Source: a virus
DNA length: 47,531 bases
IMG/VR virus record: IMGVR_UViG_3300046692_000064
Span: 1-47,531 of that record
Direction: 5' to 3' (one strand)
Shown here in pieces: positions 5,914-46,951 of this stretch (position 1 is the first letter of the stretch; every line of letters begins with the position of its first letter). A program made the position numbers and the translations under genes. The notes beneath the pieces are model-generated. The model saw nothing but the letters and a program-made list of their open reading frames with translations. It searched no databases and was not told where the DNA came from.

Positions 5914-6685
5914 GGTAAAGCGTAAGCGCGTAGTGCTGCCCGACTTCCGGCCTAACGTCGGGGTTCGGGCGTCCTACCGCGCCGAGCTGAATAGCCTTCT
6001 GCGCAGTGCGCGCAACGAGGTGATGCAGGCGGTCGCCCATAACTGGCAAGCTCCTCAGCCTGTCGCCATGGACGCGGCGCGGGACATCCTCGGTCGCGTG
6101 ATCGATGCCATCATTGCCAAGTGGATGACCAGCCTCAACGACCTGCCGCAGAAGATGGCGCGGCGTTTCGTGGGTCAGACGGCCGGGGCGCTGGATCGCG
6201 GCTTGGGCGCTGCGCTCAAGAAGTCGGGCTTTGCCGTCAACCTGCAATTGACGCCTGTGACCAAGGAGGCCATGCGCGCCTCTATGGGCGTTAACGTAGG
6301 CCTGATTAAGTCGATCCCCGGCGAGTACCTCGGCGACGTGCAGAAATACGTGTGGGAGTCGGTAGAGGCTGGTTTCGACCTGAATACCCTGACCGACAAC
6401 CTGGAGCATGCCTATCACATTGGGCGCAACCGGGCCAAGCTGATCGCCCGCGACCAGTCAAACAAGGTCCACGCCGTCATGGAGCAGGCGCGCCGCCAAG
6501 AGCTGGGAATCAAGAAAGCCATATGGCGCCACTCTGCAGCAGCCAAAGAGTGGCGGCAATCTCACGTAAAGGCCAACGGCAAAGAGTTCGATATCGCAAA
6601 GGGCATGTATCTCGACGGCGAGTGGGTGCTTCCAGGTCAGGCCATCAACTGTGGATGCACCAGTAGTAGCGTGCTGGAATGGTAG
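5900..6685 (+). CDS. MuF-like head morphogenesis protein
   Basis: The 261-residue protein has a basic N-terminus and the C-terminal hallmark of the SPP1 gp7/Mu F family: RAKLIARDQSNKVHAVMEQARRQ-type helix, then IKKAIWRHS, a GKEFDI strand and INCGCTSSSVLEW at the end. Such proteins are minor capsid components that sit near the portal and may be injected. The start is uncertain: ATG 5900 and ATG 5903 are both possible, and a GTG at 5882 is less likely. The beginning overlaps the previous gene by 14 bases. Confidence 0.85.
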   Translation: MMANKVKRKRVVLPDFRPNVGVRASYRAELNSLLRSARNEVMQAVAHNWQAPQPVAMDAARDILGRVIDAIIAKWMTSLNDLPQKMARRFVGQTAGALDRGLGAALKKSGFAVNLQLTPVTKEAMRASMGVNVGLIKSIPGEYLGDVQKYVWESVEAGFDLNTLTDNLEHAYHIGRNRAKLIARDQSNKVHAVMEQARRQELGIKKAIWRHSAAAKEWRQSHVKANGKEFDIAKGMYLDGEWVLPGQAINCGCTSSSVLEW

Positions 6686-9750: not shown

Positions 9751-10170
9751 ATGGATGACGCCGTAGTCTTCGATCCGGCTGAATTCCGGGCGCTGTACCC
9801 TTCGGTCACTGCCACTGACGTGCAGCTTGAGGACTACTTCGCCATGGCGGAAACCTTCCTCGACAACACCCAGTGCAGCGTCGTCAAGGATCTGGGCGCA
9901 CGCAAGCGGATGCTCTATCTGCTGGTGGCCCACATTGCCACGCTGACCGGCATGGCCGAGAAAGGCAACCCGGTGGTGGGCCGTATCTCCAATGCCACCG
10001 AGGGCACCGTATCCGTGTCCTTGGACTACGGCACCATGGGCAACAACGAGCGCTGGTATCTGCAAACCCCGTGGGGCGCGATGTACTGGCAGCTCACCAA
10101 GCGCTATCGCTCGGCCGTCTACCGCCTGGGCATTGCGCCTATGCCTGTGCAGAGGACGTTCACCCAATGA
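9751..10170 (+). CDS. Head-tail connector (DUF4054-like)
   Basis: The 139-residue protein begins VVFDPAEFRALYPSVTATDVQLEDYFAMAETFLDN, a helical opening typical of DUF4054 head completion/adaptor proteins, followed by HIATLTGMAEKGNPVVGRISNATEGTVSVSLDYG and a WGAMYWQLTKRY helix. It would attach to the portal as an adaptor ring. The stop overlaps the next start by 4 bases. Confidence 0.78.
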   Translation: MDDAVVFDPAEFRALYPSVTATDVQLEDYFAMAETFLDNTQCSVVKDLGARKRMLYLLVAHIATLTGMAEKGNPVVGRISNATEGTVSVSLDYGTMGNNERWYLQTPWGAMYWQLTKRYRSAVYRLGIAPMPVQRTFTQ

Positions 10171-31630: not shown

Positions 31631-32731
31631 TCAGAAGTTGATAACGATATTCGGAACTTCGCCGCGAGCGATCTTCAGGACGATGGCCTTGGCCAGTTCC
31701 TCGGATATGTTCATCGACATGATTGCTTCCTTCGCGGCGCCCAAGATCTTTGACTTGTGCGCCATGTCGGCCTGTCTGGCTTTCTGCTGGCGGATGATTT
31801 CGTCCGCTGCTGCCTCTTGCCGGGCTTGCTCATCTAGTCGAGCCTGCTCAACCGCTTGCTTCTCGCGTTCGATGGCTGCAAGCCGGTCCTGCTCTGCCTT
31901 TTGCTCGGCTTCGAGCTTCTCGCGCTTTGCCTGCTCGGCGCGGCGATCTGATTCCGCAGCCTGCAGCTTCAGATCGGCTTCGCGCTTCTCGGCGGCTGCC
32001 TGGTCGTCACGGGCTTTCTGCTCTTGCGCTTCACGATCGCGCTGCGCCTTTTCCTCGGCCTCGCGGGTGGCTTTCTCCGCGGCTTCGCGGGCAATGCGGT
32101 CTTCGCTGTCCTTCTTGTCGCGGGCTTCTTTCTCTTCGCGCAGCTTGGCCAGTTCGGCCTGCTCGGCGTCGTATGCCTCACGCTTCGCCAGCGCCGCGCC
32201 AAGCGCTTCGATTGCCTTGGCCTTGGCTCGGTGCGCCTCGGCTTCGAACTCTTCCCACTGCTCGCCAACGGTGATGGCTTCGACCTTGGCGATGCGGTCA
32301 GCCAGATCCTCGGCGGTGATGCCTTCCAGCGCTTCGGCGGATAGTTTCAGGCGGGCGATGGCGTCATTGTGCTTATCAACCCGCGCATCCTCGGCGGCCT
32401 GCCAGTCGTCCAGCGGCTTGCGCACTTCATCCTTCCACGCGTCGAGCAGGTCGCGCATCCGCTTACGCTCGGCATCGATCTTCTTCGGCACATCCTTCAG
32501 CTCGGCGACCAGCTCCTTGCCGATGTTGTCCAGTGCCGTTTTCGAGCGGGCAACGCTGTGGGCGATAGAGGCGATTGCCTGACGACCCTTGACGGTGGTG
32601 ATATCTGGTACAAACCCATCGATCTCTTCGCGGATCTTCGCCAGGTACGGATCAAGGCCGCTGGCCGCACTGAACACTGACAAGGCGTTTTCTTTCGATG
32701 GAACAACTGCAATTTCTGTTGCTTCTGACAT
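31631..32731 (-). CDS. DUF1351-like coiled-coil protein
   Basis: The 366-residue protein starts at ATG 32731 after GAAGGGAA; the longer ORF to 32833 lies inside a structured leader and is rejected. The N-terminal part has GLDPYLAKIREEIDGFVPDITTVKGRQAIASIAHSVARSKTAL and DAWKDEVRKPLDDWQAAED, as in the DUF1351 family that accompanies ERF/RecT genes. Residues 180-330 are an extremely charged coiled coil (many Ala, Glu, Lys, Arg). It may act as a scaffold or regulator of the recombination machinery. It is the first gene of the recombination operon. Confidence 0.8.
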   Translation of the reverse strand: MSEATEIAVVPSKENALSVFSAASGLDPYLAKIREEIDGFVPDITTVKGRQAIASIAHSVARSKTALDNIGKELVAELKDVPKKIDAERKRMRDLLDAWKDEVRKPLDDWQAAEDARVDKHNDAIARLKLSAEALEGITAEDLADRIAKVEAITVGEQWEEFEAEAHRAKAKAIEALGAALAKREAYDAEQAELAKLREEKEARDKKDSEDRIAREAAEKATREAEEKAQRDREAQEQKARDDQAAAEKREADLKLQAAESDRRAEQAKREKLEAEQKAEQDRLAAIEREKQAVEQARLDEQARQEAAADEIIRQQKARQADMAHKSKILGAAKEAIMSMNISEELAKAIVLKIARGEVPNIVINF

Positions 32732-32746
32732 TTCCCTTCTCCCACG

Positions 32747-32924
32747 AAAAAGCGCTTTGGGGTTGCCCGGTGGAACTCTGTGAATAACCTGGATCGACGG
32801 CTTGTCGGTCAGACACAGAACGGGCAACTCCAAAACGCTTTGATAGCCGTCGATCCTGATAATTTGCTTTAGCGTTCCACGGCCTTGGCGAGCTGAATAA
32901 TACCCTAAAACTTAACCTCAACAA
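32747..32924 (-). promoter_or_regulatory. Attenuator-like leader with promoter (copy E)
   Basis: Reading leftward: TTGTTG (32924-32919) and TATTAT (32902-32897) with 16-base spacing; a segment GGATCGACGGC (32856-32846); after 4 bases the long hairpin 32841-32821 with 32769-32749 (21 pairs, one G-U, one A-C mismatch); inner stem TCTGTG (32819-32814) with CACAGA (32782-32777); the 20-plus-base loop contains GCCGTCGATCC (32801-32791), a perfect 11-bp complement of the upstream segment. The hairpin ends in 5 Ts and then GTGGG ... GGGAAATG into the DUF1351 start. The two pairings cannot coexist, so this looks like a terminator/antiterminator switch. Confidence 0.65.
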
Positions 32925-32933
32925 CCTGTTCGT

Positions 32934-33050
32934 TCATCCAGTGATATGCCCAGCCAGCGCACTGGCAAGCATGAATCCGGCACAGGCGAGAAGTGTGATT
33001 GCACTCCCTCGCCAGTAGGCGTAGCGCTTGGCGCGTTGGTAGCTGGTCAT
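32934..33050 (-). CDS. 38-residue membrane protein
   Basis: This small protein reads MTSYQRAKRYAYWRGSAI then TLLACAGFMLASALAGHITG and starts at ATG 33050 in an ATGA overlap with the DUF551-like gene. It has one hydrophobic C-terminal helix and a basic N-terminus, so it likely sits in the inner membrane. Function unknown. Confidence 0.5.
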   Translation of the reverse strand: MTSYQRAKRYAYWRGSAITLLACAGFMLASALAGHITG

Positions 33051-41609: not shown

Positions 41610-41737
41610 GCAAGCGAAACTGGACCGTGCGCGCATCCGGCAAGTCGTTTCAGATGGTCGTTCTGGAGGCCGCCATCGATCACGCCGAGGCTCTACGCTC
41701 TGCCAGATTGATTTGGCCACATGCAGAGGTTTCGTGA
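41606..41737 (+). CDS. 43-residue hypothetical protein
   Basis: The product begins MSKRNWTVRASGKSFQMVVL and ends RLIWPHAEVS. ATG 41606 overlaps the previous stop. It is a small coupled gene. No family recognised. Confidence 0.5.
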   Translation: MSKRNWTVRASGKSFQMVVLEAAIDHAEALRSARLIWPHAEVS

Positions 41738-41740
41738 AAA

Positions 41741-41901
41741 ACCACTAGCCAAGCAAGTTAACCGCCAGTATGATTTGCGAACAGCCTTGGCGGGCTTTCA
41801 ATTCAGTAAGGCTAGAGCGATGCAGTGCATGTACTGAACATGTCCGCCGATTCCAGAAATGGAAACTGCATCGCTCTAGCCTTTTTTGTGGGGCAATAGA
41901 A
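41741..41901 (+). promoter_or_regulatory. Attenuator-like leader with promoter (copy A)
   Basis: CTAGCC (41745-41750) and TATGAT (41769-41774) lie 18 bases apart, followed by TTGCGAAC. The hairpin 41808-41826 with 41865-41883 is a perfect 19-bp stem ending in six Ts (41882-41887). Inside are CATGT (41828-41832) with ACATG (41838-41842) and TTCCA (41851-41855), loop GAAA, TGGAA (41860-41864). The segment TCCGCCGA (41843-41850) between them can pair with TTGGCGGG (41787-41794) upstream of the hairpin (8 pairs, two G-U). Then GTGGGGCAATAGAAATG leads into the 41902 gene. Confidence 0.65.
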
Positions 41902-42078
41902 ATGGATAAGAAAACGATACGCGAGGCTGTTGCTGGGGCGATCTGGAGCGTTCGCCGCGAGAGCGAAGATCGATGCGACATGGATCTTGAGGATATGGGG
42001 CTCGATCATTCAGTATGGGATGAGGCGGACGCTGTGATTGACGCGCTAGACCTGATTGGTGTTGAGGTGAAGCCATGA
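41902..42078 (+). CDS. 58-residue acidic hypothetical protein
   Basis: The product starts MDKKTIREAVAGAIWSVRR and has an acidic centre with CDMDLEDMGLDHSVWDEADAVIDALD. ATG 41902 is chosen because the longer ORF runs through the structured leader. It is the first gene after copy A of the leader family, so its expression is likely controlled by it. Function unknown. Confidence 0.6.
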   Translation: MDKKTIREAVAGAIWSVRRESEDRCDMDLEDMGLDHSVWDEADAVIDALDLIGVEVKP

Positions 42079-42263
42079 ACCGCGCCAGCCCGGTACAACT
42101 CAGGAAATCCCTTGAAGTCGCCCACGCCTTCGCCAAGGCTGGCATCAGTTTCGTCGTCATGCCGGTAGTTGATGAGGCCGACCATGCGAATCTGGCGGGG
42201 CAGGCCATAGAGCGATTGGAGCGGATCGCGGCCATAGTTGAATCGAAGGAGCGGATGGCATGA
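42075..42263 (+). CDS. 62-residue hypothetical protein
   Basis: It reads NRASPVQLRKSLEVAHAFAKAGISFVVMPVVDEAD and ends RIAAIVESKERMA. It overlaps both neighbours. A short helix-strand-helix pattern is seen but no family. Confidence 0.55.
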   Translation: MNRASPVQLRKSLEVAHAFAKAGISFVVMPVVDEADHANLAGQAIERLERIAAIVESKERMA

Positions 42264-42520
42264 GCGACAAATCGCGTAAGGATTTTGAGGCGTGGGCGAT
42301 GACTACAGGGTTTGAGGACCACCACTTTGCATTGCGCGATGATGGTGAATACGCAAATTACGATGTCCGCCGCCTCTTTGCGCCGTGGCAAGCAAGCCGC
42401 GCCGCTATCGAGGTGGAGATGCCGAAAAGCACAGAGTTCAGTCGTGACGATTATCCAGGCTACGTCATTGACCGATGCGGGAGAATGATCGCCGCACAAG
42501 GCCTGAAGGTGAAAGCATGA
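42260..42520 (+). CDS. 86-residue hypothetical protein
   Basis: The product has KSRKDFEAWAMTTGFEDHHFALRDDGEYANYDVRRLFAPWQASRAAIE, a FExW...Y...W.A pattern shared with the 40672 and 41062 genes, and an IDRCGRMIAAQGLKVKA end. Such small FEAW proteins are common in early operons of Pseudomonas phages. Function unknown. Confidence 0.65.
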   Translation: MSDKSRKDFEAWAMTTGFEDHHFALRDDGEYANYDVRRLFAPWQASRAAIEVEMPKSTEFSRDDYPGYVIDRCGRMIAAQGLKVKA

Positions 42521-43155
42521 ACGATATGATCTGCCGTAAATCTATGACCCGCTGCCTTACGCCGGGAATGTGCTCCCCGCATGGCGGATGCAAAGATCCA
42601 GCTACAGACAGATTGCGTGAAGTGGTCGAGCAGCAGAAAGCCCTGATCGCCTCCCTGCGCAACGACCTGCAGGAAGCCATAGCGATTGACTGCGACGACG
42701 ACGCCAAAGACGCCTGCGCCGAAGTTGAGCGCACTGGCACGCCGGGTAGCGTGATCCGCGAAATGAACGATGAGCTGGCGGATCTGCGCGCCAGGCTAGC
42801 GGAGCGGGATGATCTGCTGCGCGATATCAAGGATGCGCCAGGCGGAAGTTCGTTCAAGCGCCATATTGAAGCCGCCCTATCAGCCAGCGCAGAGCCGAGC
42901 GCGCCGGTTGAGTGCGACTGGGAGCCGCTTACTTCGCCGGGGCAAGTCCAGCTAGGTGACTGGTTGAGCTTTAGGGTTTCTGGCTCGCATATCTGTGCTA
43001 GAGCAAGCCTGATAATTGACCCTGGAACTGATCGCGAAGAGATCGTCTACAACGTCAAGAAGAACCACTATTTCATCACGTCGATGGCGATTGATGGCAC
43101 AAGCACGCACAAAGGCGTATTGGTGTCAAAGTCAACGCAGGAGCCAACCCAATGA
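42517..43155 (+). CDS. Hypothetical protein with coiled coil
   Basis: The 212-residue protein starts at ATG 42517 in an ATGA overlap. It has a Cys-rich N-terminus (MICRKSMTRCLTPGMCSPHGGCKDP), a coiled coil (residues 30-110: REVVEQQKALIASLRNDLQEA, ELADLRARLAERDDLLRDI) and a C-terminal strand domain (WEPLTSPGQVQLGDWLSFRVSGSHICARASLII). No family recognised. Confidence 0.6.
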   Translation: MNDMICRKSMTRCLTPGMCSPHGGCKDPATDRLREVVEQQKALIASLRNDLQEAIAIDCDDDAKDACAEVERTGTPGSVIREMNDELADLRARLAERDDLLRDIKDAPGGSSFKRHIEAALSASAEPSAPVECDWEPLTSPGQVQLGDWLSFRVSGSHICARASLIIDPGTDREEIVYNVKKNHYFITSMAIDGTSTHKGVLVSKSTQEPTQ

Positions 43156-43553
43156 GCCAATCATGCGAAAAGCACGCCGCCCTTCCAGTAGTCGGTCATT
43201 CCCCGTGCGCAGGGTTCGAGATAGAAAGACTGAAGGCCGAGGTTGAGCGCTATCGAAAGTACGGCTGCGATACCTGCGACGGTTCAGGCCACTTGCACCG
43301 GGCCGATGGTGAGTATTTCGGAGCATGCACGTCTTGCGGCGCGTATGAGCTGGAGCAGGCCAAGCGCGAATCTGAAGGTCTGCGGAAGGATGCTGAGCGT
43401 TATCGTCATCTGAGAGCATGCAACGGCGGATCACTGGTCATCACTCAGCTGTCATTTGACAAGGATGAGGAGCGAGAACTGGTCGAGGAAGAAGCAGATC
43501 AGGTAATCGACGCCGCCATGAGCAAAGACCCATTGGCCAATCCAGGCCAGTAG
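43152..43553 (+). CDS. Hypothetical protein with Cys clusters and coiled coil
   Basis: The 133-residue protein has SPCAGFEIERLKAEVERYRKYGCDTCDGSGHLH and FGACTSCGAYELEQAKRE; CDTCDGSG and CTSCG resemble the DnaJ-like zinc knuckle. The middle is a coiled coil. It ends VIDAAMSKDPLANPGQ. The last bases overlap the -35 region of copy B of the leader family. Confidence 0.6.
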   Translation: MSQSCEKHAALPVVGHSPCAGFEIERLKAEVERYRKYGCDTCDGSGHLHRADGEYFGACTSCGAYELEQAKRESEGLRKDAERYRHLRACNGGSLVITQLSFDKDEERELVEEEADQVIDAAMSKDPLANPGQ

Positions 43554-43715
43554 CGGTATGATGTGCGAACGGGAGTCGAAACCCGGCTGTAATGGATCGA
43601 GGGTTAACAAAGGTTTTGATTTGCACTGTTCCTGTTGGGTTGAGTTCCCCCTCGATCCAGACCCATCAGGATTTCGACCAGTGCAAATCAAAGCCTTTTT
43701 TTGTGGGCGTGAGAA
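43529..43715 (+). promoter_or_regulatory. Attenuator-like leader with promoter (copy B)
   Basis: TTGGCC (43533-43538) and TATGAT (43557-43562) lie 18 bases apart, followed by GTGCGAAC and a small hairpin. GGATCGAGGG (43594-43603) precedes a 20-bp hairpin, 43609-43628 with 43679-43698 (one G-U), which runs into seven Ts. Inside, CCTG and TGGGT (43631-43640) pair with ACCCA and CAGG (43661-43670), and the loop contains CCCTCGATCC (43649-43658), a perfect 10-bp complement to the upstream segment. With only 5 linker bases the two pairings exclude each other. GTGGGCGTGAGAAATG then leads into the antirepressor. Confidence 0.7.
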
Positions 43716-44474
43716 ATGAATTTATTGGTTGAAAGATCGGCAAGCATGACAAGTCTTGAGCTGGTCATGCTTATCAACAATCACAGAAAGGCTGAGGCTC
43801 GCAAGGTTGCGCGTCTTTTCCCGTCGAAGGGTTTTGCTCAGCTTGAGCACTCCGACTTTATGAAAAAAGTTGTCGAGGTTCTCGGGGAGAGTGCCGGAAA
43901 TTTTTCCGACACCTACATCCACCAGCAGAACGGACAAACTTACCCGTCCTATCGCTTCCCGAAGCGTGAAGCCTGCCTGATGGCAATGTCGTACAGCTAC
44001 GATCTGCAGGCGGCAGTATTTGACAGAATGACCGAGCTTGAAGAGGTGAAGGCGCCCGCACTGCCTAGGTCATTCGCCGACGCACTGCGCCTTGCTGCAG
44101 ATCAGGCTGAGCAGATCGAGCAGCAATCCCAGCAATTGGCTATCGCTGCGCCAAAGGTTGAATTCGTAGACCGTTACGTCGAATCGTCCGGCCTCAAGGG
44201 CTTCCGCCAAGTCGCCAAGCTGCTGGGCATCAAAGAGAACCTATTCCGGGCCTTCCTGGTCGAAAACAAGATTCAATACCAGATCAGTGGCGAGTGGGTT
44301 CCCTACGCCAACCACATCGACGCCGGCCGGTTTGAGGTGAAGACCGGGACTGCCGAGCACAACGATCACGCATTTACATCTGCCAAGTTTACCCCGCGAG
44401 GCATTGAATACGTCGCCCGCCTGCTGCGCGACTCAAAGAAAATAGAACCTGAAAAGGCCCTGAGTCATGGCTAA
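43716..44474 (+). CDS. Rha/KilAC antirepressor
   Basis: The 252-residue protein has an N-terminal Rha domain (LELVMLINNHRKAEARKVA, FMKKVVEVLGE, DTYIHQQNGQTYPSYRFPKREACLMAMSYSYDLQAAVFDRM), a helical linker, and a KilAC domain (KVEFVDRYVESSGLKGFRQVAKLLGIKENLFRAFLVENK, then FTPRGIEYVARLL). Such proteins bind DNA or a repressor and control the lytic switch. ATG 43716 has a weak ribosome site; ATG 43746 is possible. It follows copy B of the leader family, so its synthesis may be set by transcription attenuation. Confidence 0.88.
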   Translation: MNLLVERSASMTSLELVMLINNHRKAEARKVARLFPSKGFAQLEHSDFMKKVVEVLGESAGNFSDTYIHQQNGQTYPSYRFPKREACLMAMSYSYDLQAAVFDRMTELEEVKAPALPRSFADALRLAADQAEQIEQQSQQLAIAAPKVEFVDRYVESSGLKGFRQVAKLLGIKENLFRAFLVENKIQYQISGEWVPYANHIDAGRFEVKTGTAEHNDHAFTSAKFTPRGIEYVARLLRDSKKIEPEKALSHG

Positions 44475-46375: not shown

Positions 46376-46951
46376 GTGCCTAAACTTGTATACGGAGTAG
46401 GAATCAACGACGTTCCCGGCTCGACAAGGAAGCGGAACCCGATCTATATCGCGTGGTATGGGATGCTCACGCGGTGCTTTTCTGAAGGGTACAAAGAAAA
46501 ATATCCTACTTATCGGGGCTGCACTATTGACCCTGAATGGCTTAGGTATTCTACGTTTTCAGAGTGGGCAGCGCCTAGAATTGGCGAGGGAATGTGCCTA
46601 GACAAGGACATTCTGCTGTCTGGAAATAAACATTACTCCCCTGAGCTTTGCGCGTTCGTGCCAAAGTGGCTTAACTCCTTCATATCAAACATGAAGCAAA
46701 AGGATCGCGGCGGACTGCCTATGGGCGTCCAGCAATACGGGAATCGGTTTATTGCGAGATTCGGATGTCGAGGAACAGAAATATATCTCGGGTCTTTCAA
46801 GGATGCGCAGTCAGCGCATGTTGAGTACATGGCGACGCGCAAGGTTGAAGTGGCCAAGCGGATAGATACCTACAGCAAGATGCCTGGCGCCATTGCCGAG
46901 ATTGCTGCCGCCCTTGTACAATTGTTCGAAGCAGATGAATGCCAAGGCTGA
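46376..46951 (+). CDS. AP2/HNH-associated DNA-binding protein
   Basis: The 191-residue protein starts at GTG 46376 after AGGA. Its N-terminal half has IAWYGMLTRCFSEGYKEKYPTYRGCTIDPEWLRYSTFSEWA, and the C-terminal part PMGVQQYGNRFIARFGCRGTEIYLGSFKDAQSAHVEYMATRKVEV is an AP2-like DNA-binding domain. This pair is typical of phage proteins related to HNH homing endonucleases but I see no HNH residues, so it may only bind DNA. It is a mobile-type gene, and its AT-richer composition fits late entry. Confidence 0.75.
   Translation: MPKLVYGVGINDVPGSTRKRNPIYIAWYGMLTRCFSEGYKEKYPTYRGCTIDPEWLRYSTFSEWAAPRIGEGMCLDKDILLSGNKHYSPELCAFVPKWLNSFISNMKQKDRGGLPMGVQQYGNRFIARFGCRGTEIYLGSFKDAQSAHVEYMATRKVEVAKRIDTYSKMPGAIAEIAAALVQLFEADECQG

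Follow-up and report, generated by a model that had tools for sequence, protein, structure and literature searches.

What does a structured leader do when it stands ahead of unrelated genes on opposite strands of one phage genome? The question arises from a 47,531 nt viral sequence (all of IMG/VR virus record IMGVR_UViG_3300046692_000064, referred to here as the window), in which a sequence-only reading had proposed that a minus-strand leader, our element E, is a second copy of a plus-strand leader, our element B. The parts of E are as follows.

32897–32924, minus strand: sigma70-like promoter, TTGTTG-N16-TATTAT (consensus only); the end of the -10 box is 12 nt upstream of P0
32737–32884, minus strand: element E, a class I knotted leader (146.7 bits with covariance model R1 and 171.3 bits with R2; E is in the training set of both)
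32871–32884, minus strand: P0 hairpin, GGC[CGTGGAAC]GCT, with c (GTGGAAC) at 32880–32874
32846–32856, minus strand: a, GGATCGACGGC, read in the sequence
32821–32841, minus strand: 5' arm of b, the terminator hairpin (hairpin scan and folding)
32814–32818, minus strand: 5' arm of d, CTGTG
32791–32801, minus strand: a', GCCGTCGATCC, in the apical loop, perfect complement of a
32778–32782, minus strand: 3' arm of d, CACAG
32770–32776, minus strand: c', GTTCCAC, touching the 3' arm of b
32747–32769, minus strand: 3' arm of b and U-tract
31631–32731, minus strand: gene behind E, phrog_1376, function unknown (PHROGs)

The promoter boxes TTGTTG (32924–32919) and TATTAT (32902–32897) lie ahead of the leader on the minus strand as had been noted, and agree with the consensus at 8/12 bases. 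The segments GGATCGACGGC (32856–32846) and GCCGTCGATCC (32801–32791), described earlier as an 11-base perfect complement, are both present and pair perfectly, and the helix is 12 bp long when the next pair is included. The hairpin does end in Ts, but its 21-nt arms (32841–32821 and 32769–32749) form 20 pairs, one of them U-G, and one A-C mismatch, so that the earlier count of 21 pairs was one too many. It is followed by TTTTT (32751–32747), GTGGGAGAAGGGAAATG and the ATG at 32731. Assignment of the downstream gene to DUF1351 could not be reproduced; Pfam gives nothing at E<=0.001, and the PHROGs match is phrog_1376. A simple scan reported neither a promoter nor a terminator at E, the promoter falling under its cut and the terminator rule taking loops of 3–8 only. 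The sequence GGATCGA occurs 20 times in the window against 8.4 ± 3.0 expected from shuffles, and E and B hold only four of these.

Element B is built from the same parts on the plus strand.

43533–43562, plus strand: promoter-like TTGGCC-N18-TATGAT; the end of the -10 box is 8 nt upstream of P0
43571–43711, plus strand: element B, class I (in the training set of R1 and R2)
43571–43584, plus strand: P0, with c (GTCGAAA) at 43575–43581
43594–43603, plus strand: a
43609–43628, plus strand: 5' arm of b
43649–43658, plus strand: a'
43672–43678, plus strand: c'
43679–43698, plus strand: 3' arm of b
43696–43702, plus strand: U-tract
43716–44474, plus strand: gene behind B, antirepressor with KilAC/ANT domain PF03374 (Pfam E 5e-27)

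The local alignment score between B and E is 40, compared with 15.7 ± 2.4 (maximum 27) in 1000 dinucleotide shuffles, and this similarity together with the shared plan of helices bears out the proposal that E is a second copy of B's leader on the opposite strand. The single G-U pair noticed at the same step in both is also real, and is UG in 22/27 and CG in 5/27 distinct copies. From 5' to 3' the class I RNA runs P0, with c in its loop, then a, b, d, a', d', c', b' and Ts. The small hairpin P0 closes a loop of 8 nt, xGTNNNNN, and c is the last 7 of these; a is GGATCGANGG, b is 20–21 nt long, and c' touches b'. Of the helices, P0, b and d are nested and make up the terminator hairpin, with d stacked atop b, and a/a' and c/c' cross it, with c and a lying 5' of b and a' inside the loop of d. 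The P0 hairpin, the c/c' pairing and helix d were absent from the sequence-only reading and are added here, as is a third element at 41.8 kb.

41746–41774, plus strand: promoter-like TAGCCA-N17-TATGAT
41783–41893, plus strand: third element, class II (interleaved-helix scan)
41783–41796, plus strand: P0, AGCC[TTGGCG]GGCT
41808–41826 and 41865–41883, plus strand: arms of b
41844–41850, plus strand: P0 partner CCGCCGA, between two small hairpins within the terminator loop
41882–41887, plus strand: U-tract, with GTGGG
41902–42078, plus strand: 58-aa ORF behind the third element, no family match

The P0 loop TTGGCG(G) of this element pairs with CCGCCGA, and the element is similar in plan to E and B and unrelated in sequence; neither covariance model detected it when the window was searched with both. 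The interleaved-helix scan scored the window's three elements at 70.5, 67.0 and 57.6, and the best of 60 dinucleotide-shuffled windows at 53.1.

A BLAST search with E (E<=1e-5; 50,697 phage records) found only the Pseudomonas syringae phages Orisa01–03, and further loci came from pattern scans of IMG/VR and a protein-neighbour scan. Model R1, trained on 12 copies (alignment A2), gave 33 class I matches plus Iodobacter phage PhiPLPE (E 3e-4) among 83 preselected sources. A model made from B and E had been suggested as a way to find further copies, and R2, trained on these two alone, returned the same 33 class I matches from 88 sources, of which 31, each with E<=2e-17, are additional to the two training copies; since the sources are the window plus loci preselected by pattern, similarity or gene neighbourhood, this is no survey of whole collections. 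Beyond class I, R2 matched PhiPLPE (7e-5) and L139 (1.6e-3), which are related in a different arrangement, and ten more of the 45 matches it made fall on the complementary strand of genuine copies. Loci L136 and L502 are one place, so the 33 matches are 32 places and the 31 beyond training are 30; they fall in 26 records including the window (25 besides it) and give 27 distinct rows. Loci L207/L225, L210/L136/L502 and L493/L501 were each merged as one contig.

Elsewhere the models returned little. R1 had no match at E<=1 in 66 other loci (1.01 Mb) and found nothing in L125, L195, L160, L131, L156 or L353; R2 scored L195 (E 0.63) and L160 (E 0.29) weakly, and neither Marinomonas phage P12026 nor L125 was among its matches. 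Searching 78 loci picked by the 15-base end motif CTTTTTTGTGGGTGA alone, R2 gave one weak match, in phage 1N2-2 (E 0.019). This motif occurs at 86 places, of which an ungapped-hairpin script kept two, one being 1N2-2 with a P0 partner; the script was too strict, having passed over the bulged class I copy L517, but it is clear that the motif cannot by itself identify the element. A covariance search of the best eight candidates per genome in 390 genomes of one order gave no match and says little, and an exact pattern in 390 genomes of the same order hit one palindromic place, which we took as chance. The plasmids searched yielded no element. The pattern of the first IMG/VR scan was too loose and matched mostly by chance, and from a bacterial genome scan, also with too loose a pattern, none of the matches listed was used as an element. 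Among the matches listed by a class II pattern scan, 14 distinct candidates were inspected and only L139/L443 and PhiPLPE fit. Vibrio phages QD01/VS1 have just 27 bases in common with PhiPLPE, and the intergenic gap in QD01 is too short for an element; the VS1 record carries no annotation.

To what extent the helices are maintained was counted in alignments A2 (12 rows) and A3 (28 distinct rows including PhiPLPE), with identical rows counted once; A3 was fitted to P0, b and d, and its model left a/a' and c/c' unpaired. The counts leave out L132, L078:11920, 1N2-2, P12026 and the class II alignment A5, which is poor; MAFFT misregistered P0 between types in A1, A4 and A6, and A2 is correct. In A2, 98.5% of 523 cells are paired, with 91 both-side changes compared with 30.8 ± 4.1 when shuffled and at most 15 when slid, and in A3 97.8% of 1275 cells are paired, with 221 both-side changes compared with 68.1 ± 7.7 shuffled and at most 40 slid; because the rows are related, these figures are not probabilities. 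Among the 27 class I rows without PhiPLPE, pairing is seen in 189/189 cells of c/c', 287/290 of a/a', 620/628 of P0 and b, and 126/135 of d. The c/c' helix is perfect in all 27 rows across seven c types (GTGAGAC, GTGGAAC, GTAGTAG, GTGAGAA, GTCGTAA, GTTAGAC and GTCGAAA). There are 62 G-U cells and 8 A-C cells, an excess suggesting that it is the leader strand that folds; one column supplies 22 of the 62 and another 7 of the 8. The sequence of a is nearly invariant (divergence 0–0.03 within types and 0.1 between, 12 rows), and b, c and d diverge by about 0.1–0.4 within types (12 rows). Near-invariance leaves a/a' with little covariation support in class I, where 1/11 pairs changed on both sides, and a may be conserved for a reason other than pairing.

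The surroundings are equally regular. TTTTT stands at the 3' end of 27/27 distinct class I copies and is followed by GTGGG in 23/27, and a stable hairpin with a U-tract lies between the promoter (by consensus) and the gene. A TATNNT -10 box is found 8–13 nt upstream of P0 in 10/13 class I copies examined (consensus only), the exceptions being Orisa, with GATACT, and L078 and L216:6019, with nothing convincing. The start codon, as chosen by script, is 3–5 nt past the aligned end in 28/33 class I matches; in B and E it is 13–15 nt from the end of the U-tract, and the class I ribosome site follows the U-tract, outside the hairpin. We are close to certain that the E/B class is a real, conserved, structured RNA; that it is a leader is suggested by the promoter-like boxes, the U-tract and the start-codon positions.

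The plan extends beyond class I. Idiomarinaceae phage 1N2-2 (L608/L633), found via the 15-base end motif, has P0 CGG[CGTGAGAA]CCG, c' TTCTCAC and the same part order as class I, with a/a' (TTAGAGAA/TTCTCTAA) quite unlike that of class I. P12026 has P0 loop CGTGATAA, c' TTATCAC, d, b and the U-tract; a/a' is absent there, the longest complement being 3 nt. Covarying loops in the class II arrangement are seen in PhiPLPE and L139, and L195 and L160 are alike by eye and script. Class II and P12026 tie to class I by plan, the P0 loop pairing into the terminator loop; further ties are given by the models for PhiPLPE and L139 and by BLAST to 1N2-2 for P12026. Since a/a' is missing in P12026 and class II, the P0-c' pairing and terminator b are the common core and a an addition. 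When 480 loci, some of them chosen for the element and with duplicates among them, were scanned with a descriptor, 38/98 large terminator-like hairpins had a P0 partner of at least 7 bases, compared with 6.3% after shuffling the upstream and loop sequences. In L132 (1700–1835, ahead of a Rha + ANT gene by Pfam) and L078 (11920–12060) P0 pairs through GTCAGAT and GTCAGAG, and the long hairpin, which lacks a U-tract, runs up to a GGAG ribosome site; this suggests that control in these two is translational. An HDV-like ribozyme reading, prompted by a similar strand order in class II, was dropped, as was a leader peptide, a short ATG frame at a occurring in B-type copies only (by eye).

Other candidate phage RNA structures were seen among these loci. 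L131 (9570–9700) and L156 (16540–16660) carry another pseudoknot with a terminator-like end and common arms GCCCTTACTCATGCGTTC/GAACGCAGTAGTAAGGGC, the upstream pairing being wholly different in each. In L353 (Aeromonas phage 51, 1029–1180), before a gene that precedes a Roi-like antirepressor, an upstream loop GTAGAG complements the terminator-like hairpin loop CTCTAC. A terminator-like hairpin at L202 5711 (plus strand) has an upstream complement of about 13 bases with one bulge, CAGGTTTGGCCGCC/GGCGGCCAACCTG, and is maybe another family.

That the copies precede unrelated genes on opposite strands was rightly recognized in the sequence-only reading, and the gene types are more numerous than first noticed. 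Behind class I copies we find phrog_1376 (E and its kin by sequence similarity), the ANT antirepressor (B), HNH_3 (Orisa03), HNH phrog_953 (L504, with homologues in L508, L512, L517, L521, L528 and L538), ERF (L078), NinX (L493), DUF551 (L206) and proteins without a family match. HNH-type genes follow the leader in Orisa03, L504 and the six of its homologues tested, P12026 and 1N2-2, whereas the genes behind E, B and others are not of this type. Between Orisa03, P12026 and 1N2-2 the HNH proteins share about 32–34% identity, and the compared flanks of the three contain no other protein matches. In 1N2-2 the element and its HNH gene are inverted among head genes, and in L518 and L216 an element with its gene is inserted between a phrog_1376-type gene and the next gene. 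That next gene is ERF-type in L518, as is the one adjoining the phrog_1376-type gene in the window, and L216 shows its recognisable start. The inserted-unit protein of L518 has no Pfam match, and no convincing promoter was found ahead of the inserted copy in L216. From these arrangements, the leader either travels with single genes or serves as an anchor when they are exchanged. The window also contains an HNH endonuclease (46376–46951, phrog_953), a family found behind several class I copies, with no element directly upstream.

The reading we prefer, and hold to be reasonably likely, is that E is a cis-acting leader RNA working as a transcription attenuator for swappable gene cassettes, and that it probably limits when downstream genes are switched on. 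Its basis in the sequence is the helices, the covariation, the U-tract and the cassette contexts, and from these we infer promoter use, termination, competition and the direction of control. RNA polymerase would start just upstream, placing P0 at or near the RNA 5' end, and as the RNA emerges c would pair with c' and a with a'. When b' emerges it would zip with b, d helping, to form an intrinsic terminator. The two helix sets share no bases but interleave, so b should be hard to zip while a/a' closes the loop that holds it, an obstacle that would be greatest while the 3' end remains in the polymerase, and the winning set would determine the transcription frequency of the gene. Gene cassettes, often of HNH endonucleases, would reuse it as a common leader. 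Because the sets use different bases, they could either be present together in one knotted fold or form one before the other. In a geometric reading, the 7-bp c/c' helix would continue the b helix and could coexist with it, whereas a/a', 3–5 nt from the base of b, would conflict with d and with full zipping of b; a/a' would then brake termination and the P0-c' pairing guide it. The threading conflict between a/a' and b is a geometric argument, and a/a', being absent from P12026 and class II, cannot be a universal antiterminator. The input sensed could be an RNA-binding protein that recognizes the conserved a, an RNA acting in trans, or the speed of the polymerase.

In all 12 rows folded, transcripts cut off at the end of c' reach -34 to -42 kcal/mol. 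In the four early structures viewed, B, E and Orisa hold c/c' and a/a' and L216 holds a/a' only, and the full-length fold of all four is b+d. The full-length minimum free energy is 9–26 kcal/mol below that of the early fold in 12 rows (the lengths differ), so the terminator should win at equilibrium. Full-length folding z is -5.4 for E and -4.4 for B.

Several of these features can be read in other ways. The regular position of the start codon would suit translational control, in which the long hairpin would restrict initiation at the adjacent ribosome site when transcripts are long or arise by read-through, as with the homing endonucleases of T4-like phages; leader hairpins control T4 I-TevI, segB and Aeh1 mobE (PMC2988022, as far as accessible), and L132 and L078:11920 end at the ribosome site. 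We think this unlikely, as the U-tract is retained in every distinct class I copy and the class I ribosome site is outside the hairpin. Rather improbable also is a small RNA of about 145 nt, constitutively expressed from the prophage and base pairing in trans like the c4 antisense RNA of phages P1 and P7, for copy-specific immunity or copy coordination. Promoter-like boxes and a terminator-like end are what it would have, B lies ahead of an antirepressor, and the variable c and nearly fixed a resemble the variable a' and less variable b' loops of c4 (accessible part of PMC5320573). Moreover, c differs between co-resident elements in the eight contigs, some of them partial, with at least two elements (the window, L212, L216, L207/L225, L210/L136, L493/L501, L078 and L130), and between E-type and B-type copies it diverges beyond b (0.62 compared with 0.38). 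However, both partners are present in each RNA and cis pairing should beat trans; the divergence of c is about that of b within types and that of d between types, giving no clear sign of selection for new specificities; the c4 family model RF01695 has no match at the elements of the window and related loci; and the identified downstream genes are mostly not immunity genes. A hypervariable immunity code as the main reading was dropped on the same divergence pattern.

An inverted-repeat site for homing or recombination of endonuclease cassettes, acting as DNA, might account for the gain and loss of element-gene units and for the HNH genes behind many copies, but hardly for the excess of G-U over A-C cells, for promoter-like boxes, U-tract and start codon all oriented alike, or for the many copies ahead of genes not known as endonucleases, and we give it next to no weight. 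The HK022 put RNA is a cis-acting RNA of two simple stem-loops that stands at the start of both early operons, left and right, in a temperate phage, and to our knowledge it has no terminator or pseudoknot. A put-like processive antitermination RNA, a folded leader that modifies RNA polymerase to pass later terminators, would fit the window, where copies stand at the head of a leftward and a rightward operon, and L212, where they occupy opposite strands; the elements themselves end in a U-tract and precede single inserted genes, and this too is very improbable. More speculative than the attenuator reading, and doubtful, is a mobile riboregulator cassette, in which the leader would accompany free-standing endonuclease genes and other cargo across unrelated phages (those of Pseudomonas, Iodobacter, Idiomarinaceae and Marinomonas). 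Its seven-base P0-c' lock would be re-coded per copy for independent control of co-resident cassettes, possibly also in trans against incoming copies, and topological control, through interleaved helices that share no strand, would delay the terminator.

For the cis-acting attenuator that we favor, comparison with known systems gives partial likenesses. Rfam 15 has no family at the elements when the window is searched at gathering score; at E<=1 (32700–32960) and E<=5 (41700–43740) two matches appear, both outside the elements. In six related loci the matches were to tRNAs and int-alpA, with low scores for rimP and CRISPR repeats, and all lay away from the elements. Titles and abstract beginnings of mostly open-access literature contain no description of this element, and the accessible text of a dwarf myovirus paper naming PhiPLPE does not contain the words terminator, hairpin, leader, promoter, stem-loop or attenuat. 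With no match in Rfam 15, we consider the element a new RNA family of the known terminator-leader kind.

Classical terminator attenuators and riboswitches place a leader terminator before a gene and exchange a shared strand between it and an alternative fold. The element has the terminator leader, and perhaps an alternative fold, in common with these, whereas its helix sets share no base and conflict by interleaving only, and no ligand pocket is evident. The c4 phage RNA acts on an antirepressor operon. It is a processed 77-nt RNA of three stem-loops that targets a ribosome site (PMC5320573 and PMC2864571, both accessible in part); like it, the element has one variable and one conserved complementary segment, and B also lies ahead of an antirepressor, but its architecture differs and it is unmatched by RF01695. 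The int-alpA RNA (RF02996) occurs in L188 at 6216–6280 and 9913–9978, right before two antirepressor-looking genes (by eye), which suggests a role in antirepressor control; it shares this position with the element and differs in its fold, its shortness and its want of a U-tract. In the T4-type leaders (I-TevI, segB, Aeh1 mobE and seg43 of phage 25), a hairpin before an endonuclease gene limits its expression, in most cases by hiding the ribosome site on long transcripts, which a late promoter relieves, and segD is an inverted free-standing cassette (PMC2988022, in the part accessible). These resemble those of our elements that precede HNH genes in having a phage-borne hairpin right before endonuclease genes, beside the ribosome site, and an inverted cassette; they are single hairpins, whereas here there are an intrinsic-terminator-like end, a 5' hairpin that pairs back, interleaved helices and many other genes behind. 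We regard the T4-type endonuclease leaders as nearest in biology and c4 RNA as nearest in logic.

The element adds a clearly covarying structured RNA family to phage gene control, and offers a test case for whether termination in the course of transcription can be decided by RNA topology alone, with no exchange of strands. Its re-coded seven-base pairings could serve as natural orthogonal parts, and its contexts suggest a way in which phages may hold selfish endonuclease genes and antirepressor genes in check.
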